From Acidimicrobiaceae bacterium (lineage in GTDB: Bacteria; Actinomycetota; Acidimicrobiia; Acidimicrobiales; Poriferisodalaceae): a DNA stretch of 64,000 nt. Each line of letters starts with the position of its first letter. Positions within the stretch are counted from its first letter, which is position 1. Made by a program: the position numbers and the translations under genes. Shown one piece after another: positions 33,941 through 47,033 of this stretch. Below the pieces are notes generated by a model, which worked only from the letters and a program-made list of their open reading frames with translations, searched no databases and was not told the DNA's origin. The stretch spans positions 62,001-126,000 of the forward strand of contig PBHE01000007.1 of assembly GCA_002719335.1 (NCBI GenBank). Reading direction: 5' to 3'.

Positions 33941-34765
33941 CTAGGAGCGGCTGTCGGCGATCAGCCCGCCATCGGGGAAAATAATTTCTCCCGTCACGAA
34001 ACTTGCTTCGTCGCTGCAAAGATAAAGGCAGGCGTTCGCAATATCTGAGGGCTCTCCGAGCCGACGCAGAGGCGTTTCTTTCACCCGTGCCTCTACCCAC
34101 TTTTCGTTGCTTGTTGCTGCGCCGCTCATCGAGGTCTTTATGTAACCGGGGCCGACGGCGTTCACTCTTATGCCGTGTCGAGCAAGTTCAATCGCTCCAC
34201 ACTTGGTGAGCATCCAGACTCCAGCTTTGGAGACGCAGTAATCGGAAGCACCCATGAGAGCCGTCTTTCCTGCGACTGACGCAATATTAACGATCGCGCC
34301 GCCCCCCGATTCAGCCATTCGTTTGGCTACGAACTGGTTGGTGAGCATGACACCTGTGAGGTTCACATCTATTACACGTTGCCAACTTGCCAGTGACTTA
34401 TCGATAAGCATCATGTCGTGCTGGTCAAATCGATCAGCGGCTTTTTGCTCATCAGCTTCGCGACTCACATAATCCGCATGAGATATGCCGGCCGCGGCTA
34501 CACACGCGTCGATGGTCCCGAAAGCGTCAACAGCAGCCGAAGCCATTGCTTCCACTTCTTCGGGGAGTGAAGTGTCGACTTCCACAGGGATCGAATCAAC
34601 TCCAAGAGCTGCAACTTGGTCTGATACGGAATGGGCGCGTTCAAGATTTAGGTCCGCTACGACGACGCTCGCTCCCTCTTGCGCGAAACGCAGACAGCAG
34701 CCCATCCCTATTCCGGAAGCTCCCCCAGTAACAAGAACTACTTTTCCTTCCATACGTCCGGCCAT
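33941..34765 (-). CDS. short-chain dehydrogenase/reductase
   Basis: 274 aa classical SDR. Cofactor motif TGGASGIG near residue 13; VVVADLN ends strand 2 with Asp, favouring NAD(H). Active site: Ser in NIASVAGK, Tyr-x3-Lys in DYCVSKAG, then VNAVGPGYIKTSM. It has a 30-residue insert around SREADEQKAADRFDQHD. It likely oxidises a secondary alcohol in the island's pathway. GGGAGG ribosome-binding site; a TAGGTT box about 45 bp upstream is a possible promoter. Confidence 0.87.
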   Translation of the reverse strand: MAGRMEGKVVLVTGGASGIGMGCCLRFAQEGASVVVADLNLERAHSVSDQVAALGVDSIPVEVDTSLPEEVEAMASAAVDAFGTIDACVAAAGISHADYVSREADEQKAADRFDQHDMMLIDKSLASWQRVIDVNLTGVMLTNQFVAKRMAESGGGAIVNIASVAGKTALMGASDYCVSKAGVWMLTKCGAIELARHGIRVNAVGPGYIKTSMSGAATSNEKWVEARVKETPLRRLGEPSDIANACLYLCSDEASFVTGEIIFPDGGLIADSRS

Positions 34766-34936: not shown

Positions 34937-37339
34937 TTATTCGAGTACTCCTGCTATCACGAGCTCGGCTATTTGGTCAGCGTCGTAGCCCAGCAATTCG
35001 CTGAGAATTTCGAAGTTGTGTTCACCCCAAAGAGGTCCTGCACGTTCTGGTGTTCCGTCGCTGCGAGAGAGACGGAAGCCGTACTGTTCAACCCAACTGG
35101 AGCCGTACACTTCGTGAGGTACTTCCACAAAGTGATTGCGGTGCAGCAATTGAGGGTCTGCAGCAACTTCAGGGCTGTTCTGAACTCGATGTGATGGAAT
35201 CCCATTTGCCTGCAGGAGGTGGGTAGCTATGTCCGGGTCTTGTTCGCCGCACCAGTCGCTGAGTAGTTGGTTTAGCTCTTCTTCTCGATTAAGACGTTCA
35301 GCCAACTGCAGATCAGCGAGATCTTCTCGTCCTAAGGTATGAGCAAGTGCCGCCCATTGGTCGTCGCTTTCGCAGGCAATTGCTAGCCATTGATCTTCGG
35401 TGATTTCTCCGCATCGATACACCGAATGTGGTGCTTGCCAACGATCAGCATTGCCAATTCGAGTTTGAGCGAATCCGTTGACTTGTTGATCCAGGATTGC
35501 CTCCGTCAAGAAATGTATTCCTCCTTCGGCCTGTGAAAAATCAAGGACTGTTCCTTCGCCGGTCCGCTCCCTATGGTCCAGTGCTGCTATGAGGAGGGCT
35601 GCGGTGAGTCGCGGAGAAGTCGCGTCGGTGTAAGCAAGAAATGGGCCAGCTGGAAGCCGATCAGCCCACCCAGTTAATTCGTAATAGCCGCCAGTGGCCG
35701 CGCCCATATTTCCGAATCCAGGTATTGGTGACAACGGACCGGTTTGCCCGAATAGCGTGGTGGAGCAGATGATTAAACGAGGGTTGACCTTTAAGAGATC
35801 CGCTGGGCTTAAACCCATCCTGTCGAGCACTCCTGCTGAGAAGGCGTTGATTGCGATGTCGGATTGGGCTGCTAAATCCAAAACGACTTGCCGTGCCTCA
35901 GGAGCCTTGAGGTTGATTTGCAGGCTCTCCTTGTTTGCGTTGATGGAATGCCATTGCTGGCTGTTTTCCGGCCCATCGGGATCGTCGGGGTCTCGGGTTA
36001 GTCCTGAGGTTCTGACTTGGTCAGGTCGCGTTTGGGATTCGATCCGAATGACCCGCGCCCCGTAGTAACCCAACATTCGGGTCGCAAAAGGACCTGCATA
36101 CACCCAAGTGAAGTCGAGAACGGTCACCCCTTCGAACGGCTTTCGAGGTGTCGAGGTCTGCGCCCCGGAGGAACTAAATGGACGGGTTTCGGCAAGTACC
36201 TCGGCCGTGTGTTCACCCAGTGTGGGAGGCCTATCTAGACGCCGCAAACCTGTAGGGGAGCCATGTGCCCACGGTCCTGGGAATTTCACAATTCCCTCGA
36301 CCCCGTCCATATCAACTTCATCCCAAAAGCCGCGCTCGGAATAGTGAGGTGTTTCGAGAACATCAGCGGGTGTGATGACGGGAACCAGAAGCAATTTGTC
36401 TCGCTGGGCCATCTCAAACAGGTCTTTTTTTGAATAGGCGGCGAGAGCATTCGCTAGACACGCCGCTGTTCGCTCGGCAATCGATGCAACTTCTTCCAAC
36501 TCGTGTTCGCCGAGTAAGTCCGTCCAGTCGATTCCGCAGAGGTCGTCGTCTAAATGACCTTCACTCTGTACCCACTCAAGCAGGCGGTTCATGAATGAGC
36601 CAACGAGTATGCCAGGTAAGAAGGTGACTGTTACATGCCCGTCGAGGCACTCGTAGACGAAACGGAATTTAAGCATTCCTAACAGTTCGAATCCGCCGCC
36701 GGTTCGTTGGGCGGAGGGATTGTCACAGAGGGCCGTTGCTAGCCATCCTTGCGCAGTGAGTATCATTGCTTCCTGGGCAGATACGTCGATGTGTTGGCCG
36801 ATTCCGCTTTGTCTGCGATCTGAAAGTGCGATTAGTGCTGCGCATGCAGCTTCCGAGGCGGCATTGACCCAAACTTGCGGCGCTGAGATCCTTACTGGAG
36901 CGCGATCTTTGTAGCCGTTTAATGACATCGGGCCTGCGGCTGCGTTCAGAGTGAGATCGGTACCGATCCACTCTGACTTTGGTCCATCCTCACCGAAATT
37001 TGTCATTGACACTGTTACCAATGACGGGTTCAGGGCTCGAAGCTCGGAAAGATCGACGTCTAACGCTCCGCACTCGATTAGCACGTCTGCGGTCAGGGCT
37101 AAGTCCTTCAGGATCGCTTGATCCCCCATCAATACTGAACGTTTGCCCCGGTTGTACGCCCAATGTTGAAGTGAACGTTCCGGGTCCGCTTTGTTGCCAG
37201 CAAATGGAGGAAGGTGGCGTGAGCGTTGCCCTCCAGGAGGTTCAACTGCGATCACATCTGCACCTAATTGCGCAAGCAGTAGACCAGCAAAATGCCCGCG
37301 ATCATCAGTTAGATCGAGTACACGATAAGGCGACAGCAT
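34937..37339 (-). CDS. tandem-fused CaiB/BaiF (family III) CoA transferase, paralogue 1
   Basis: 800 aa made of two homologous family III CoA-transferase halves (about 1-385 and 405-800). Each half opens with a VLDLT/VLDFT strand and ends its core with GxGxxxDxSxxE: GQHIDVSAQEAM in the N-half, GTVLDFSQAEGG in the C-half. The residue aligned by eye with the catalytic Asp of formyl-CoA transferase is Glu in both halves. It would transfer CoA between carboxylic acids; substrate unknown. ATG 37339 is chosen because AGGGGGAA precedes it. Divergent from the carboxyltransferase gene across 101 bp. Confidence 0.85.
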   Translation of the reverse strand: MLSPYRVLDLTDDRGHFAGLLLAQLGADVIAVEPPGGQRSRHLPPFAGNKADPERSLQHWAYNRGKRSVLMGDQAILKDLALTADVLIECGALDVDLSELRALNPSLVTVSMTNFGEDGPKSEWIGTDLTLNAAAGPMSLNGYKDRAPVRISAPQVWVNAASEAACAALIALSDRRQSGIGQHIDVSAQEAMILTAQGWLATALCDNPSAQRTGGGFELLGMLKFRFVYECLDGHVTVTFLPGILVGSFMNRLLEWVQSEGHLDDDLCGIDWTDLLGEHELEEVASIAERTAACLANALAAYSKKDLFEMAQRDKLLLVPVITPADVLETPHYSERGFWDEVDMDGVEGIVKFPGPWAHGSPTGLRRLDRPPTLGEHTAEVLAETRPFSSSGAQTSTPRKPFEGVTVLDFTWVYAGPFATRMLGYYGARVIRIESQTRPDQVRTSGLTRDPDDPDGPENSQQWHSINANKESLQINLKAPEARQVVLDLAAQSDIAINAFSAGVLDRMGLSPADLLKVNPRLIICSTTLFGQTGPLSPIPGFGNMGAATGGYYELTGWADRLPAGPFLAYTDATSPRLTAALLIAALDHRERTGEGTVLDFSQAEGGIHFLTEAILDQQVNGFAQTRIGNADRWQAPHSVYRCGEITEDQWLAIACESDDQWAALAHTLGREDLADLQLAERLNREEELNQLLSDWCGEQDPDIATHLLQANGIPSHRVQNSPEVAADPQLLHRNHFVEVPHEVYGSSWVEQYGFRLSRSDGTPERAGPLWGEHNFEILSELLGYDADQIAELVIAGVLE

Positions 37340-37440
37340 TGTTCCCCCTGCCCGTCGGTTCTCATCATAGAGAACATGCAGGCAGGCTTTAGCGGAGATG
37401 GGCATAACGTGATGAACTATCGGCTTACCCCGAGGATCCC

Positions 37441-39009
37441 ATGAGTGAAGATAACGAAGAAGCCCAAGCCGACCCGGTTGCCGATCTTTATGAGCGGCAG
37501 CGACGTATTCGCGAAGAGATGGGCGGAGCCGAGCGAGTTGCGCAGATGCGCGCTGATGGAATTCCGACGATTCGCGACCATATCGATGGGTTGCTCGACG
37601 ATGGAACTTTTCGCGAGTTGGGCACCCACAGTCGCTCGATGCGCCTGGAAGACCGCCACAACACCCCCGGAGATGGCAAGGTCGGCGGCGAAGGAGAAAT
37701 TGAGGGGCGATCAGTAGCTATCGGGGGAGACGACATCACGGTAAAGAAGGGCTCGAGCGCGATTGTCGGAAGTCGCCGCCTCCATCGGCTTTACGAAAGG
37801 GCGATGGAACGCGGCATGCCCTATGTTTACGTCGGAGAAACTGGTGGGGGTCGAATTCCCGACCTTATCGGGGCAGAAGGCATCGCCGAGGTAGCACCGG
37901 ACCCAGAGCTAGCGCGAAGAAGGCGCCAAATACCGATGGCGACAGTTATCGTGGGACAAAGTTTCGGAGGGTCCTCATTCCAGTCGGCATTCTCGGACTT
38001 TGTTGTCCAAGTTCGAGGGTCGGTTCTTGCGGTTACTTCACCAAGAGTTTTTGAGGTTGCTACCGGCGAAATCATCGGATTTGAAGAGCTAGGTGGCGTG
38101 GATGTTCATTCACGGATCACAGGCCAGATAGACCTTGGTGTCGAGACATTTGAAGAAAGCTATATGGCGGTCCGCCGGTGGCTTTCGTACCTGCCGCCCA
38201 ACGCTTGGACACCAGCGCCTCGAAGCGAAGTTAGGGCCGATCTAGAGCCAGACGGATCTCTCGCGGCGATGGTGCCACGGAAACGAACTCGCGGATATGA
38301 CATGCGTCGATTCAGCGCAGCCCTTTGCGACCCTGGTTCCTTTATGGAACTTCAGCCTGGATACGCCCGTAACCTCACTACAGGGCTTGGCAAACTCGAT
38401 GGTTTCTCTGTCGGGATCATTGGTAACAACCCGATGTTCAACGCTGGTGTTTTGGACCCCGAGTCTTGCCGCAAGGCGATCCGATTGATGTGTCTCTGTG
38501 ACGCATTCAATCTTCCCGTCATCTTCTTGATGGACGTACCAGGGTTCATGGTCGGTAAGGCGGTTGAGCACGATCGAATTTTGGCTCTTGCGATTCGCTT
38601 TGTGGAAGCGTTAGGCAACATGTCGACCCCGACATTGACTGTGGTTCTCCGAAAAGGCTTTGGTTTGGCGTACCCAGCTATGAACGGGTCCGGACTCGGC
38701 TCATCAGGTCTTTATTCTTGGCCAGGCGCCGAAATTGGTTTCATGGATCCCGACGTTGGAGTCAATGTTGCGTACTCGGCTCGTCTCGATCAACTGGATC
38801 CAGCGGAAGCAGAAATTGAACGAGCGAGAATGGTTTCCGATATTTCGCTAGCTACCTCGCCGTATGAGGCTGCCGGGACGCTCCGTATCGATGAGGTGAT
38901 CGATCCTGCGGACACAAGAGGGGTCTTAGTGAACGATCTCCGGCAACTCGACGGTCGTCGCGTTCCCGCACCAGAAGAACGGCCGCTTAGCTACTGGCCG
39001 ACAGTGTGA
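37441..39009 (+). CDS. acyl-CoA carboxylase carboxyltransferase (beta) subunit
   Basis: 522 aa biotin-dependent carboxyltransferase, both crotonase-like halves present. N-half ends GGDDITVKKGSSAIVGSRR and PYVYVGETGGGRIPDL; C-half carries IGNNPMF, LMDVPGFMVGKAVE and WPGAEIGFMDPDVGVNVAY. It moves CO2 from carboxybiotin to an acyl-CoA; propionyl-, methylcrotonyl- and geranyl-CoA types cannot be separated by eye. No biotin carboxylase or BCCP gene lies in the window. GAGG ribosome-binding site before ATG. Confidence 0.88.
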   Translation: MSEDNEEAQADPVADLYERQRRIREEMGGAERVAQMRADGIPTIRDHIDGLLDDGTFRELGTHSRSMRLEDRHNTPGDGKVGGEGEIEGRSVAIGGDDITVKKGSSAIVGSRRLHRLYERAMERGMPYVYVGETGGGRIPDLIGAEGIAEVAPDPELARRRRQIPMATVIVGQSFGGSSFQSAFSDFVVQVRGSVLAVTSPRVFEVATGEIIGFEELGGVDVHSRITGQIDLGVETFEESYMAVRRWLSYLPPNAWTPAPRSEVRADLEPDGSLAAMVPRKRTRGYDMRRFSAALCDPGSFMELQPGYARNLTTGLGKLDGFSVGIIGNNPMFNAGVLDPESCRKAIRLMCLCDAFNLPVIFLMDVPGFMVGKAVEHDRILALAIRFVEALGNMSTPTLTVVLRKGFGLAYPAMNGSGLGSSGLYSWPGAEIGFMDPDVGVNVAYSARLDQLDPAEAEIERARMVSDISLATSPYEAAGTLRIDEVIDPADTRGVLVNDLRQLDGRRVPAPEERPLSYWPTV

Positions 39010-39020
39010 AAATGTGAGAT

Positions 39021-39026
39021 TAGGGT
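39021..39026 (+). promoter_or_regulatory. -10 box of the first PhyH gene
   Basis: TAGGGT, 7 nt before the ATG at 39034, in a 24-bp gap after the carboxyltransferase; suggests an internal leaderless promoter. Confidence 0.45.
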
Positions 39027-39033
39027 TGAACTA

Positions 39034-39852
39034 ATGGACTATCACGTCGCCAAAGAAGAAGTTGACGCGTATCACAGAGACGGTGCAGTACCCCTGCGGG
39101 GAGTTGTTGACGGAGATTGGTTGAAACTGCTGGAAGCGGGAATCGAGCGTGATATGAGCGAACCAGGCCCGTTTACTCACGGATATGTCCCGGACAACGG
39201 AATCGGAAAGTTTTACGGAAACATCAGAATATGGGAAAACGATCCTGAGATGGGAAGGTTCTGCACCAGCGGTCCCCTTGTCTCTCTCGCAGCCCAGTTT
39301 TTTGAGTCATCGAAGGTCAACCTCTTTTACGACCAACTCTTCATTAAAGAACCCGGTACCGAAAATCGGACTCGTTGGCACAACGACTTGCCCTATTGGC
39401 CGGTCAGGGGAAGCCAAATTATGTCGTTTTGGATCGCCTTAGATGCAGTGACCATCGAAAGTGGCGCGCTCGAATTCGTGAGGGGCTCACATCTTTGGGA
39501 CATCTGGTATCAGCCGGAGACCTTCGGAAAGACCTCGGGGCATGGTGAGTATGAACGAAACCCCGACTACGTCGACATGCCTGACATCGAAGCGACTCGC
39601 GATGACTACGAAATTATTACTTGGGATCTCGAACCTGGTGATGTCTACGCGTTTCATGCGATGACTGTTCACGGAGCTGGAGGAAATCTGCGTTCCGATG
39701 TACGCCGTCGCGGCTACACCGTTCGATACTGCGGAGACGACGCGGCGTACGACTCTCGTAAGGGAACCCAAGGCCATCTTCGGTCCGATCAACATCGCGA
39801 TGGCGACTCCCTTGATAGTGACCTATACCCCTTGGTGTGGCAGTCTCACTGA
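39034..39852 (+). CDS. phytanoyl-CoA dioxygenase (PhyH) family protein 1
   Basis: 272 aa Fe(II)/2-oxoglutarate-dependent oxygenase fold. Iron triad by position: His116 and Asp118 in WHNDLPYW, His213 in MTVHGAGGN; Arg231 in TVRYCGDD would hold 2-oxoglutarate. Hydroxylates an unknown substrate; family members act on phytanoyl-CoA, ectoine or small metabolites. Sits between the carboxyltransferase and the second CoA transferase, whose stop converges 10 bp away. Confidence 0.86.
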   Translation: MDYHVAKEEVDAYHRDGAVPLRGVVDGDWLKLLEAGIERDMSEPGPFTHGYVPDNGIGKFYGNIRIWENDPEMGRFCTSGPLVSLAAQFFESSKVNLFYDQLFIKEPGTENRTRWHNDLPYWPVRGSQIMSFWIALDAVTIESGALEFVRGSHLWDIWYQPETFGKTSGHGEYERNPDYVDMPDIEATRDDYEIITWDLEPGDVYAFHAMTVHGAGGNLRSDVRRRGYTVRYCGDDAAYDSRKGTQGHLRSDQHRDGDSLDSDLYPLVWQSH

Positions 39853-39862
39853 TTAGTCACCG

Positions 39863-42274
39863 TTATTCGAGTACTTCGGCCGCTGCAAGGTCGGCAATTT
39901 TGTCAACTGAATAGCCCAATAATTCGCTGAGTACTTCGAAGTTGTCTTCCCCCAGACAGGGCCCTCCCCGTGCCAGTACTGCCGGGGTTCGCGACATTTT
40001 TGTTCTGCACGAATGAGTCCACATCGACCCAGCGTGACTCTGTGGAACCTGGATTTGGTGTTGGCGGTGTCTCAGTTGAGGGTCGGTGTTAGTTCCAGCT
40101 GCGTCGTGGACCGGGTACGCGGCAACTCCCGAGTTTTGGAGTTCCTCAGCCGCAGAATCGTTATCTCGTACCGAACTCCAGGCAGTCACTGCCTCATCAA
40201 TCAGAGCGCGCTGCTCGCGACGCTCCAATTGGTTGATGCCTGTAAGGCTATCGAGGCCAATGATTTCGGCTAACGCGGGCCAGCTTTCGTCGGAACACGC
40301 GACCGCTAGCCACGAATCCTCGCCCTTCGAGGAGAAAACACCGTGGGGGAACATATGGGGGTCATCGTTGCCCTGCCGCTGAATGGTTCGCCCATTTACA
40401 CTTTGATCCAATATCGCTGGGGCCAGGTAATGGAGCGCGCACTCAGTTTGCGACAGGTCGATGTATTCTCCCCGTCCAGTTGTTTTTCGGTTCTCTACCG
40501 CCGCCATCAAGGTCGCGACAACGATACGCGGTGCCAAGAAATCTGTGTACGGGCCATATGGTCCCGCAGGTGGACGATCAGACCAGCCCGTTAACTCGTA
40601 ATAGCCGGCAATCGCTGCAGCCATGAACCCATACCCAGCGAGACTGGAATGAGGGCCTGTCTGCCCCAGAAGCGAACTAGAGAGCATTATCAGCCCCGGA
40701 TTGATTTCCGACAGGACGTCGTAGCCGTAACCCAAACGGCCCATTGCCCCTGGAGCAAATGACTCCGTAACAATGTCAGCCCATCGGATGAGATCCGACA
40801 CGATTTCTCGGGACTCAGGTTTGCTTAAATCGAGACTGAGGCTGCGCTTTCCAGCGTTGTAGACGCCGTACACGACACTGTTGTCGGGGTGAGGGTCTTC
40901 ATTAACGAAGGGGTTCACCGTTCGAATGGTGTCGGGTCGGCTTGCCGTTTCAACCTTGACTACATCAGCGCCGTAATCACTGAGTATTCGCACCGCAGAG
41001 GGCGTTGCAATCACCCAAGAGAACTCGACAACCTTCAGCCCTTCGAGAGGCAACGAGTTATTAGCCGTTGGCGTCGCATTGAACTTGGGTTTTCGGTCGA
41101 CGGTCACCGTTTCGTTGTGTTCGCCCAGCTTGGGTGGAGAGCCTCTGAACTCGATGGGGTTGTTTTGGAACTTCACCAATGCGCCCGGATGCTGAGCGTT
41201 GTTTCCATTGTTAACCGGCTGGAAATCCCAAAAGTTGCGAGCATTGAGATGTTCGTAGTTCACCAGATCAGCGATCGTCATTGAAGGGGTGATAAGGAGG
41301 TTTCGACTTAGGGCTGCCTCCCAGAGTTGAGCTTTTGATTTCGTTGCTAGAAACTTGCCATAAGTCTCAAACGCCTCAGCGAGAACAGCGAAACTCACTT
41401 CCCCCGCAAACAGCTGCACTCCAATGTTGTCCCAGTCGATAGAGAGGAGGTTTTCGCTAGCGACTCCTTCCTCATCGAGCCACTGGGTTAGGCGACGCGA
41501 AAACGGCGCGAACGCGACACCGGGAAGAATGACACAAATGGTGTAACCGTCCCTGCATGGAAACAACAGCGGGATATCCATGCCGCCCAGGCTTATTCCC
41601 CCGGCGATCCGGTCCGCTGCCAAGGCATTTTCCATCGGAGCGACATTCTGAGGGAAGCCAATCGTGACCGACTCTTGCGCTGAGACGTCAATGTGCTGAC
41701 CGATGCCGCTTCGGTCACGCTCTTGCAAGGCGATCAGACTTGCTGCCGCCGCATCGGCAGACGCGTGTAAGAAGCTGTGCGGCAAGCCGACACGCAGCGG
41801 GGCTCGATCCGCGTCGCCACTGGCATACATGAAAGCACTACCAGCCACCGCGGTGAGGTCAGTCCCAAGCCAACGCGATCTCGGCCCCTCTGATCCGTAC
41901 GGTGTAATAGAAGCATGAATGAGGCCCGGGTTAATTTCAGCTAGGTCCGCGTAAGAGAGACCAAGAGACGAGAGATAGCCTGGACGGCAGTCTTCCAAGA
42001 AGATGTCCGCACTGGCGATCAAGGTGCGGAACTCGCCGCGATCTTCAGATGATTCGACGTTTAGAGCCAGAGAACGCTTTCCTCTGTTGTAGGCCCAATG
42101 AGTAAGACTGGCATCTAGGTCGGGTTCATCGCCAACAAATGGACCCATATGTCGTGTAGCTACGCCAACAGTGGGTTCAACCGCTATCACCTCGGCTCCG
42201 AGATGCGCCAAGATGTGACCAGCGAACTGACTTATGCCATCACAGAGATCAACTACCCGGATGTGCTCTAACAC
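39863..42274 (-). CDS. tandem-fused CaiB/BaiF (family III) CoA transferase, paralogue 2
   Basis: 803 aa, same two-half layout as the protein at 34937-37339 and clearly its paralogue: both share HWAYNRGKRS, GQHIDVSAQE and the C-terminal NFEVLSELLGY/NFEILSELLGY. The C-half core reads GEYIDLSQTECAL. Glu again replaces the usual catalytic Asp in both halves. GTG start preceded by a run of eight G on the coding strand that serves as its ribosome-binding site. It likely acts on a related acid or forms a partner enzyme. Confidence 0.85.
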   Translation of the reverse strand: MLEHIRVVDLCDGISQFAGHILAHLGAEVIAVEPTVGVATRHMGPFVGDEPDLDASLTHWAYNRGKRSLALNVESSEDRGEFRTLIASADIFLEDCRPGYLSSLGLSYADLAEINPGLIHASITPYGSEGPRSRWLGTDLTAVAGSAFMYASGDADRAPLRVGLPHSFLHASADAAAASLIALQERDRSGIGQHIDVSAQESVTIGFPQNVAPMENALAADRIAGGISLGGMDIPLLFPCRDGYTICVILPGVAFAPFSRRLTQWLDEEGVASENLLSIDWDNIGVQLFAGEVSFAVLAEAFETYGKFLATKSKAQLWEAALSRNLLITPSMTIADLVNYEHLNARNFWDFQPVNNGNNAQHPGALVKFQNNPIEFRGSPPKLGEHNETVTVDRKPKFNATPTANNSLPLEGLKVVEFSWVIATPSAVRILSDYGADVVKVETASRPDTIRTVNPFVNEDPHPDNSVVYGVYNAGKRSLSLDLSKPESREIVSDLIRWADIVTESFAPGAMGRLGYGYDVLSEINPGLIMLSSSLLGQTGPHSSLAGYGFMAAAIAGYYELTGWSDRPPAGPYGPYTDFLAPRIVVATLMAAVENRKTTGRGEYIDLSQTECALHYLAPAILDQSVNGRTIQRQGNDDPHMFPHGVFSSKGEDSWLAVACSDESWPALAEIIGLDSLTGINQLERREQRALIDEAVTAWSSVRDNDSAAEELQNSGVAAYPVHDAAGTNTDPQLRHRQHQIQVPQSHAGSMWTHSCRTKMSRTPAVLARGGPCLGEDNFEVLSELLGYSVDKIADLAAAEVLE

Positions 42275-43599: not shown

Positions 43600-44433
43600 A
43601 TGGGAAAGGTCTTTACCGAAGAGCAGATCAAGCAATATGAGCACGATGGGTGGGTATCCCCAGTCGATTTCCTTACCTCAGAGCAGGCTGACGAGTGTCG
43701 AAGCCACTTAGAGGCCTGGGAGCTACTTCGCGGCGGTTCCTTACCCGCGCATGAACGATCGGGGGGACATATCTTGTTCCCGTGGATTGACGAACTCATG
43801 CGCGCCGAGAAAATCCTGGACGCAGTCGAGGATCTGATTGGCCCAAACATTCTTTGTTGGAACTCAGTGTTCTGGATAAAAGAAGCGCAAAGCCCCAGCT
43901 ATGTGGGCTGGCACCAGGATCTCCAGTATTGGGGCTTGTCTAATTCCGAGGTGGTGTCGATCTGGATAGCGCTCACTAACGCGAGCGAGGACGCAGGCTG
44001 TATGAACGTAATGCCTGGCAGCCACAAGGAGACCATTGAGCACGCTGAGACCTACGCGGAGAATAATCTCCTGAGTCGAGGTCAAGAACTCGACGTCGAC
44101 ATTTCGCAACGTAAGACGGTTCCTATGGCGCTGAAGGCCGGACAAGTTTCTTTCCATAACGTTCGAACAGCTCATGGGTCGGGACCCAACAAAACGAATG
44201 ACCGGCGGATTGGACTCTCTCTTCACTACATGCCGCCGCATACAGAACAAACACTTAGCGAGTGGGACAGTGCCTCGTTAGTGCGTGGCACAGATCAATA
44301 CCGACATTTTGAACATTGCCCACAGCCCTCTGCGGACTTAGAGGCAAACGCCGTGGAATTTCACAAACGTGCCTCCGATGCGATGAGAGAAATCATTTAC
44401 AAAGGCTCGCGCACTGACAGGCGAACCCTTTAG
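43600..44433 (+). CDS. phytanoyl-CoA dioxygenase (PhyH) family protein 2
   Basis: 277 aa Fe(II)/2-oxoglutarate oxygenase. Ligands His105 and Asp107 in GWHQDLQYWG, His192 in RTAHGSGPN, and Arg202 or Arg203 in DRRIGLSLHY. Motif spacing and flanking residues differ from the first PhyH protein, so the two are not a recent duplication. Followed within 10 bp by the VOC gene and then the DUF3237 gene, likely one operon. Confidence 0.88.
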   Translation: MGKVFTEEQIKQYEHDGWVSPVDFLTSEQADECRSHLEAWELLRGGSLPAHERSGGHILFPWIDELMRAEKILDAVEDLIGPNILCWNSVFWIKEAQSPSYVGWHQDLQYWGLSNSEVVSIWIALTNASEDAGCMNVMPGSHKETIEHAETYAENNLLSRGQELDVDISQRKTVPMALKAGQVSFHNVRTAHGSGPNKTNDRRIGLSLHYMPPHTEQTLSEWDSASLVRGTDQYRHFEHCPQPSADLEANAVEFHKRASDAMREIIYKGSRTDRRTL

Positions 44434-44442
44434 GTATTTGTG

Positions 44443-44844
44443 ATGCTTGATCTCCATCACATCCATATCTTCGCTTCCGATGCATCGGTCACTGTTGATT
44501 GGTGGGAAAGAAACCTCGGGGGAGTAGTGAGCCACGATGGTGATTTCGGCGGATCCCGAAACATCTTCATGAAAGTCGGGCATGGGCGCCTCAATATTTA
44601 TGACCAACCGCCACGCGGTGACTCCACCGGCGCCTATCACCACATAGGAATACGGGTAGATAACCTCGCGGATTTGCGCGACCGGATGGCTTCTAACGGA
44701 GTTGAGTTCAGATCCGACATCAGGGAGTTCAGTAATTGGCGATACCTAATGTGCGCCGCTCCTGACCAGGTTCTGCTGGAACTCTTCGAAATCGATATGG
44801 ACGATCTGCCCGCGAACCTCGCTGACTTCTTCAATCTCGGCTGA
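44443..44844 (+). CDS. VOC family protein with intact metal site
   Basis: 133 aa. LHHIHIF, YHHIGIRVDN and LLELFEI supply the His/His/Glu metal ligands expected in VOC enzymes, unlike the PhnB-like VOC at 33536-33940. Possible lyase, epimerase or ring-cleaving activity; methylmalonyl-CoA epimerase-like layout but unproven. A GTG one codon upstream is an alternative start. Nine bp after the PhyH stop. Confidence 0.8.
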   Translation: MLDLHHIHIFASDASVTVDWWERNLGGVVSHDGDFGGSRNIFMKVGHGRLNIYDQPPRGDSTGAYHHIGIRVDNLADLRDRMASNGVEFRSDIREFSNWRYLMCAAPDQVLLELFEIDMDDLPANLADFFNLG

Positions 44845-44873
44845 CCGAGCTCCGAATGTGTCAGGCTTTCTCT

Positions 44874-45305
44874 ATGGCAACTGGACATCTAGAGGTGGAA
44901 CACCTATTTACTTTGGACGTAGAGGTCGCGGAAGGAATGCGAGTTGTAAAAGGCGGACCGCAGGGCACTCGCATAATTGCTCAGGTTGCCGGTGGCACCT
45001 TTAACGGTGAGCGACTGCGAGGAAACATCGCACCTCCCGGCGGTGACTGGGTGACCGCTCGAACCGACCGCAGCCTTCAACTCGACGTTCGGCTGACCTT
45101 AGTAACCGACGACGACGCCGTCATCTTGATGCAATACAAAGGCATAGCTGAACCAAATCTCGGGGTCGCTCGCTCGGCCCCTCAATTCGAAACGGGCGAT
45201 GACCGCTATTTGTGGATCAACAATGTCCAGGGAGTTGGGGTGGGAACCCTGCACCCAGAAGGTGGAGTGACCTACGAAGTGTATTCGCTAACCCAAATGC
45301 CCTAA
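44874..45305 (+). CDS. DUF3237 protein
   Basis: 143 aa beta-barrel-like family of unknown function. Matches the family pattern: LEVEHLFTLDVEV, GTRIIAQVAGGTFNGERLRG, PPGGDWVTARTD and LTLVTDDDAVILMQYKG. Found next to catabolic genes in many actinobacteria and proteobacteria. ATG 44874 places the conserved strand near the N-terminus; ATG 44856 adds six residues. Its stop overlaps the convergent MFS stop by 4 bp. Confidence 0.8.
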   Translation: MATGHLEVEHLFTLDVEVAEGMRVVKGGPQGTRIIAQVAGGTFNGERLRGNIAPPGGDWVTARTDRSLQLDVRLTLVTDDDAVILMQYKGIAEPNLGVARSAPQFETGDDRYLWINNVQGVGVGTLHPEGGVTYEVYSLTQMP

Positions 45306-46555
45306 CGCGGTGAGACCAACCAAACGGTCGGTTGAGCCAGGAAAGAATGTGCCGGCGGTTCAGAAGGCGCGCCATCGCCGAGGCGCCATAACGGCAGGAC
45401 CGAAAGAGTTGCCATTAGCGAAACGATGATTGCTCCGACGATCGCGACCGTGTATGAGCCGGTGGCATCAATGACAGCTCCAGCAGAAATCGGTCCTACC
45501 AAGGCGCCGATGCCGGCGGAGGTGTATTGAATTCCAAGGACCCCACCCAGACCTTCAAGACCGAACATACCTGCCAGGGCGACAGGGCTTAGAGCGACGA
45601 ATCCTCCATAGCCCACTCCTAATAAACCGGCGAAAAGAAGTAGCATTGCGTAGTTGGGCCCGGCGAGTAGCCACACCACGTACGCGATGGGTTGAATGCC
45701 AAAGCACATGATGATCAACGGCAAAACCCCCAGGCGCATTCCGAGCACTCCGAGACCGAGGCGGCCGAGAACGCTCCCCAGCCCAAGCGAAGTGATGAGA
45801 AATGCCGCTGTGCTTGATGCGATCCCTTGTTCCTTCGCGTATTGCACTAGGAATACGAAAGGAATAAAGAGTGCCACTGACATCAAGAATCCGGCCAGAT
45901 AAAGCCGCCAAAATTCAGATCTTCCTACAGCGCGACGCGCAGCCGAAATGCTTGCTGCAAGGGATGCTGGCGGGGTAGGTGGCTTAAAGGAAACCAAGGC
46001 CACCACGCCGTACACGATCGCACTTCCGATTCCCATCAGTTCAAAAGCGCTGCGCCATCCAGCAGTTCGGATGAGCCATTCCGCCACAGGAACCAAAATC
46101 AAGGTCCCGAGCCCTATTCCCACTGTGTTAACCCCCAGGGCGAGAGTTCGATTTTTCTCAAACCAGGCTCCGGTGGCAACGCTGAGCGGAACTAGATAAG
46201 AGCCGATCCCTAATCCGACTCCGAGTCCGTAGACCACAATGCCGGTAAACAGAGATTCGACTTGAGCGGTAAGCCAGAGTCCTCCGCCCATGAGCAATGC
46301 GCCCACTGCTACGAGTCGCCGAGCGCCAAAACGATCGGCCAGTGGGCCGGCAAGCATGCCCACCACAAAAAAGAGAAACGTTGTGACTGAGAAGAACGCT
46401 GCGATGCCCGACAGGCCAGCATTGAACTCGTCGGCCATTTGTTCAAGAGCAGTCGCGAAGGAGTAGAAAACCCCGAATGTCCATGTGTTAATTGCGCAAC
46501 CTGCGAACGCTACGACCCAGCCGCGACCGCTATCTACCTGGTGCTTGTCGGACAT
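45302..46555 (-). CDS. MFS transporter, monocarboxylate/oxalate-formate type
   Basis: 417 aa with 12 hydrophobic segments. Motif A-like GPLADRFGARR lies between helices 2 and 3; the second half repeats the fold after a central loop at about 195-210. Layout resembles MCT/OxlT-type carriers for organic acids, fitting an uptake role for the island's substrate, but direction and cargo are inference. TAGGGT 6 nt before the ATG suggests a leaderless gene. Confidence 0.85.
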   Translation of the reverse strand: MSDKHQVDSGRGWVVAFAGCAINTWTFGVFYSFATALEQMADEFNAGLSGIAAFFSVTTFLFFVVGMLAGPLADRFGARRLVAVGALLMGGGLWLTAQVESLFTGIVVYGLGVGLGIGSYLVPLSVATGAWFEKNRTLALGVNTVGIGLGTLILVPVAEWLIRTAGWRSAFELMGIGSAIVYGVVALVSFKPPTPPASLAASISAARRAVGRSEFWRLYLAGFLMSVALFIPFVFLVQYAKEQGIASSTAAFLITSLGLGSVLGRLGLGVLGMRLGVLPLIIMCFGIQPIAYVVWLLAGPNYAMLLLFAGLLGVGYGGFVALSPVALAGMFGLEGLGGVLGIQYTSAGIGALVGPISAGAVIDATGSYTVAIVGAIIVSLMATLSVLPLWRLGDGAPSEPPAHSFLAQPTVWLVSPR

Positions 46556-46625: not shown

Positions 46626-47033
46626 ATGGAAATAGATAAGGGTCTTGACTACGTGCGCAACAACTCGCGTGCTGTTCTTGCTACGCGACGTAGAGATGGA
46701 TCTCCCCAAATGTCGCCTGTGACGCTCGCAGTGGTTGACGACACGATCATTATGAGCACACGCGAGACAGCTGTGAAAACTTGGAATTTACGACGGGATC
46801 CCGTTGCTTGGCTGTGCGTGTTTCCTGACAAATGGCTGGGCCGATGGGTGCAGTTGCAATGTCGCGGCGATGTTGTAAGCCTTCCCGACGCAATGGACCA
46901 TCTCGTTGAGTACTACCGCACTCTCAGCGGAGAACATCCTGATTGGGACGACTACAGGCGTGCAATGAACGAAGATAAGAGGTGCATCGTTTGGTTTCAA
47001 ATAGAGGCCGCGGGTCCTGATATTCAGGGCTAG
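46626..47033 (+). CDS. pyridoxamine 5'-phosphate oxidase-like split barrel, probably F420-dependent
   Basis: 135 aa. ATRRRDGSPQMSPVTLAVVD and WVQLQCRGDVVSLPDAMDHL are typical of small actinobacterial PPOX-class proteins (Rv1155-like), many of which bind F420 and reduce unsaturated or quinone-like compounds. F420 versus FMN cannot be settled here. Five bp ahead of the FAD/NAD(P) protein, so probably one operon. CAGGATG upstream acts as ribosome-binding site. Confidence 0.8.
   Translation: MEIDKGLDYVRNNSRAVLATRRRDGSPQMSPVTLAVVDDTIIMSTRETAVKTWNLRRDPVAWLCVFPDKWLGRWVQLQCRGDVVSLPDAMDHLVEYYRTLSGEHPDWDDYRRAMNEDKRCIVWFQIEAAGPDIQG

Follow-up and report, generated by a model that had tools for sequence, protein, structure and literature searches.

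We found that the window, by which we mean the whole 64,000-nucleotide stretch of DNA analyzed here, encodes two proteins, A and B, that with a probability of about three in four are each a single-chain family III CoA-transferase of the benzylsuccinate CoA-transferase (BbsEF) type, made of a BbsE-like and a BbsF-like half with one working site per chain, and that probably handle two acids or two steps in a catabolic island. The catalytic Asp of the family was found in the C half of both proteins and was absent from both N halves. BbsEF and DddD, the DMSP CoA-transferase/lyase, are already examples of family III enzymes, paired or fused, in which only one half is active.

Two Fused Family III CoA-Transferases

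The assembly that contains the window (G000), of an uncultured member of the Acidimicrobiales, has 2.3 Mb and is about 82% complete. A sequence-only reading of this DNA had placed two proteins of 800 and 803 amino acids on the minus strand, around plus-strand genes for a PF01039 carboxyltransferase (CT) and a PhyH oxygenase (PhyH1), and the same arrangement was found in our analysis (Table 1). The open reading frame of A is open as far as 37405, which corresponds to 822 aa. The alignment of its orthologues begins at about residue 17-23 of this frame, residues 1-20 have a pLDDT below 50 in the predicted structure, and a GGGGG run resembling a ribosome site lies just 5' of the ATG at codon 23; thus, A is best taken as a protein of 800 aa. 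Residue numbers of A refer to the 822-aa frame throughout. Both proteins had also been described as double fusions sharing motifs from end to end. In agreement, two full PF02515 domains were detected in A and two in B (E values of 2.7e-148 and 3.6e-154), with totals of 494 and 514 bits against a cut-off of 23.3 and each half matched separately, which places both halves of both proteins in family III (CaiB/BaiF), and A and B could be aligned over their full length at 39% identity. When compared with the specific CoA-transferase models of NCBIfam, both proteins scored far under the cut-offs, and no substrate name was obtainable.

Table 1. Coordinates, in the window, of the genes and active-site codons discussed in the text.
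Feature	Position	Strand	Remarks
SDR oxidoreductase	33941..34765	(-)	Island member
Protein A, fused double family III CoA-transferase, 800 aa	34937..37339	(-)	Start at ATG codon 23
Catalytic Asp594 of A, C half	35624..35626	(-)	...AYTDATS...; aligned with FRC Asp169 and BbsF Asp178
Trp179 of A, N half	36869..36871	(-)	...PQVWVNA...; site of the lost catalytic Asp
CT, PccB-like acyl-CoA carboxyltransferase subunit, 522 aa	37441..39009	(+)	PF01039
PhyH1, Fe(II)/2-oxoglutarate oxygenase	39034..39852	(+)	HxD...H metal site retained by every orthologue checked
Protein B, fused double family III CoA-transferase, 803 aa	39863..42274	(-)	
Catalytic Asp578 of B, C half	40541..40543	(-)	...PYTDFLA...
Phe168 of B, N half	41771..41773	(-)	...PHSFLHA...; site of the lost catalytic Asp
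Cytochrome P450	42353..43570	(-)	Among the compared islands, only in G000, G002, G005 and G009
PhyH2, second Fe(II)/2-oxoglutarate oxygenase	43600..44433	(+)	HQD, not the halogenase-type HxA/G site
VOC/glyoxalase-fold protein	44440..44844	(+)	Island member
DUF3237 protein	44856..45305	(+)	Island member
MFS transporter	45302..46555	(-)	Best matches are carriers of monocarboxylate, lactate and oxalate/formate, none reaching the cut-off
PNPOx-like split-barrel protein	46626..47033	(+)	In two g4 genomes, its homologue adjoins the orthologue of B
NAD(P)-binding flavoprotein-like protein, 467 aa	47039..48442	(+)	Island end, before GltD

Each Chain Combines a BbsE-Like and a BbsF-Like Half

The two halves of each protein resemble different subunits of benzylsuccinate CoA-transferase. 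For both A and B, HMMER scores were higher with BbsE for the N half and with BbsF for the C half, and a tree of the halves grouped them in the same manner, although several of its forks were weak. The predicted structures (pLDDT 75 and pTM 0.84 for A, pLDDT 70 and pTM 0.78 for B) are middling models, with their weakest part close to the Asp of A, around residues 577-589. The VIA-align comparison paired the N half of A with the BbsE chain 9fn0_A (Z of 26.1, rmsd of 2.9, 364 residues aligned) and the C half with FRC-type chains at a Z of about 23, while in the Foldseek analysis the first matches were BbsEF chains for B, and SUGCT and BbsF for A. Collectively, the half scores, the half tree and the structure matches indicate that A and B each contain a fused BbsEF-type unit. 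They differ from BbsEF in that the two halves form one chain rather than two separate subunits, and the identity is only about 28-34%. Unfused pairs were found in Variovorax, Paraburkholderia and Rhodococcus, and on contig C3 of the window genome. Oxygenases are present near A and B, and benzylsuccinate seems an unlikely substrate; no bss or bbs genes, including those of bbs-type beta-oxidation, were recognized among the neighboring genes scanned.

To locate the active site, 24 halves from the 12 fused doubles of the window genome were aligned with Escherichia coli FRC, YfdE, BbsE, BbsF and the unfused pairs. In the column of FRC Asp169, the catalytic residue of the family, the C halves of A and B both carry Asp, and the N halves carry Trp and Phe, respectively; the four codons were read directly in the DNA. 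The same column contains residue 178 of BbsF, where the Asp is likewise confined to the F-type half, and the title of PDB entry 9fol names a D178-CoA adduct. All 12 doubles of the window genome had Asp in the C half, and none had it in the N half. This was also the case for doubles from Variovorax, Paraburkholderia and Novosphingobium. In a sample of doubles that included A and B themselves, a few repeats and mostly orthologues, so that the counts are not independent, the C half had Asp in 61/61 and the N half Trp or Phe in 61/61, with Trp in the A clade and Phe in the B clade. When all the fused doubles sampled were considered, about 75 with the DddD-like protein described below, every one showed the one-sided pattern. 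The alignments are thus strong support for the loss of the catalytic Asp from the N halves.

The Two Proteins Lie in a Conserved Island

A and B belong to an island with the order SDR-A-CT-PhyH1-B-(P450)-PhyH2-VOC-DUF3237-MFS-PNPOx-FMO, located between PheST/2HADH and GltDB. Conservation of the four-gene set across genomes had been proposed as a check, and A-CT-PhyH1-B was indeed contiguous and in the same order in 16 assemblies, that of the window included, from three genera (g1, g6 and g7). The close relatives of A came from records of Acidimicrobiales, Acidimicrobiaceae, Acidimicrobiia and Candidatus Microthrix, with a few more labeled simply as actinobacteria. Two near-identical copies of the island were observed in G023, on contigs C26 (L069) and C11 (L070), and these are possibly an artefact of assembly or of a strain mixture.

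CT matched the beta subunit of propionyl-CoA carboxylase, PccB (PDB 3ibb and 1xnv), over its full length with an E value of 3e-84. This full-length PF01039 match, together with biotin carboxylase domains at three places in the window genome, is what is expected of an acyl-CoA carboxylase beta subunit. CT differs from PccB in having Pro at the specificity position, Asp422, and in that no biotin carboxylase gene adjoins it. A role in a sodium-pumping decarboxylase was considered and rejected, as no match to the OAD-beta decarboxylase subunit was found in the window genome at its approximately 82% completeness. Single-chain BC-BCCP-CT carboxylases were observed in two other places: one of 1136 aa at the start of contig C9 (L116:268-3678), with a CaiB fragment next to it at the end of the contig, and one of 1129 aa (L078:5424-8813) beside an orthologue of A.

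With regard to the oxygenases, the nearest solved structure to PhyH1 is the Fe/2OG dioxygenase MysH (PDB 9c9n, E value of 1e-42), which shares the HxD motif; however, no gene for mycosporine biosynthesis was recognized among the window genes examined. PhyH2 is closest to the uncharacterized monooxygenase entry 6zyk, and its HxD-type metal motif led us to discard a halogenase role. Structure matches of the P450 were uninformative about its substrate.

Alternative Readings of A and B

It had been claimed that the catalytic Asp is replaced by Glu in all four halves, which would suggest sites with altered chemistry, e.g., a racemase or a lyase-like reaction. The alignment and the codon check ruled this out: the C halves hold a normal Asp in the FRC/BbsF column, and the Glu seen by eye belongs to a (S/A)Q-x-E motif located after the GxG segment, past the Asp column. 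Moreover, the catalytic His of methylacyl-CoA racemase was not apparent in the C halves of A and B. Since nothing in its favor was left after the alignment, we give this reading practically no weight. The same reading of the motifs had set A and B apart from DddD, and this distinction was not upheld. The 837-aa double CaiB of pNGR234b (L209:5581-8094), which was identified as DddD-like by its size and setting and not by assay, has Asp599 in the C half, with Ser in the N half, and therefore shares with A and B two family III halves in one chain and the Asp in the C half only. It could then be argued that A, B or both are CoA-transferases/lyases of the DddD type, in which CoA transfer is followed by cleavage of the substrate, and in SAR202 top hits resembling DddD have been noted, together with lyases that may be novel (PMC5395668). 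However, the identity of A and B to the DddD-like protein is only about 24%, over a partial length, and both are far nearer to BbsEF-type proteins; in addition, the GMC oxidoreductase that adjoins the pNGR234b gene represents a different setting. We thus regard a DddD-type activity as unlikely. Another NGR234 match, H12, was rejected as DddD, being a single-domain protein of 395 aa.

The reading of A and B as BbsEF-type fusions leaves the question of whether they work together. They had been called paralogues retained together, possibly as a hetero-oligomer acting on one substrate, and the adjacency and order of their genes kept in 16 assemblies are in line with this. They are paralogues in the broad sense, but not sisters: in a tree of 49 doubles, the branch of B separates before those of A and the doubles of contigs C34, C18, C40 and C13, and A is closer to the C18 double (47% identity) and B to the C40 double (44%) than they are to each other. 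The tree position and the identities indicate that neither gene arose from the other by local duplication, and a recent tandem duplication was discarded on the same grounds. Moreover, each chain already has a BbsE-like and a BbsF-like half, and the two genes can occur separately. In G006, the island has an empty A site, with 198 bp from the SDR to CT, and the only A paralogue, at 43%, lies elsewhere; in G009, A-CT-P450-VOC-DUF3237-MFS are found together, and B is on another contig; in the g4 genomes, B (62-63%) adjoins the PNPOx homologue, and no A-clade match was detected; and in G060, the A orthologue adjoins a full BC-BCCP-CT carboxylase. From these arrangements, the A-CT and B-PNPOx links were observed more widely than the A-B link, and the cases of G006 and G009 make an obligate complex of A and B unlikely. 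The hetero-oligomer is thus weakened to an improbable option, and two acids or two steps are favored.

Proposed Role of the Island

We suggest that, in A and B, the catalytic Asp of the BbsF-like C half would form the covalent links with the acyl group and CoA. In the family III dimers that have been reported, the two subunits interlock and the pockets lie where they meet (PMC9196870), and by inference from them the dead N half would replace the second subunit; the BbsE-like half would then most likely act as an interlocked partner, building up the fold and the pocket. The CoA donor may be an acyl-CoA such as succinyl-CoA, and A and B would probably each activate a different carboxylic acid, or serve two steps. 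The substrate could be taken up by the MFS carrier of the island and oxidized by the two Fe/2OG oxygenases and the SDR, while CT may carboxylate an acyl-CoA with a biotin carboxylase encoded elsewhere in the genome. Our best reading is that the two CoA-transferases would serve two acids, or two steps, in an aerobic catabolic route that would include acyl-CoA carboxylation, the pathway itself being weakly indicated. It is a tentative extension of this reading that the island may encode an undescribed aerobic carboxylic-acid pathway of Acidimicrobiales, in which two single-site fused CoA-transferases would supply intermediates to two Fe/2OG oxygenases and to an acyl-CoA carboxylase dedicated to the route, and that the fusion with one dead half may be the usual plan within a large CoA-transferase radiation of these bacteria.

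Family Expansion and Significance

The family is strongly expanded in the window genome, which has 55 PF02515 matches, including the 12 fused doubles. This number is not unique in the order, as first-look counts in Acidimicrobiales genomes went from few to more than 140 per genome, with 80-143 in some f41 genomes. The pairing of a CoA-transferase with a carboxyltransferase also recurs: on contig C18 (L111:8241-12530), a fused double CaiB is directly followed by another carboxyltransferase. On contig C13 (L107:222-10145), a fused double was observed near an amidase, an SDR and a FAD/GCV_T protein similar to dimethylglycine dehydrogenase. An expansion of family III paralogues, some of them DddD-like, has been reported in marine SAR202, and these bacteria and that of the window are alike as marine heterotrophs with many family III CoA-transferases; however, SAR202 belongs to a different phylum, and neither the island nor the one-sided active site is described in the passages of that report that were consulted (PMC5395668). 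A literature search for CaiB in Acidimicrobiia returned no paper.

Several uncultured bacterial groups have large numbers of family III CoA-transferases, most of them with no assigned substrate. The results presented here offer a rule for annotating the fused doubles, as one-sided enzymes of the BbsEF type whose single active site lies in the C half of the chain. In addition, the syntenic island, with its slow-evolving carboxyltransferase, offers a defined point from which to identify one acid used by these bacteria.
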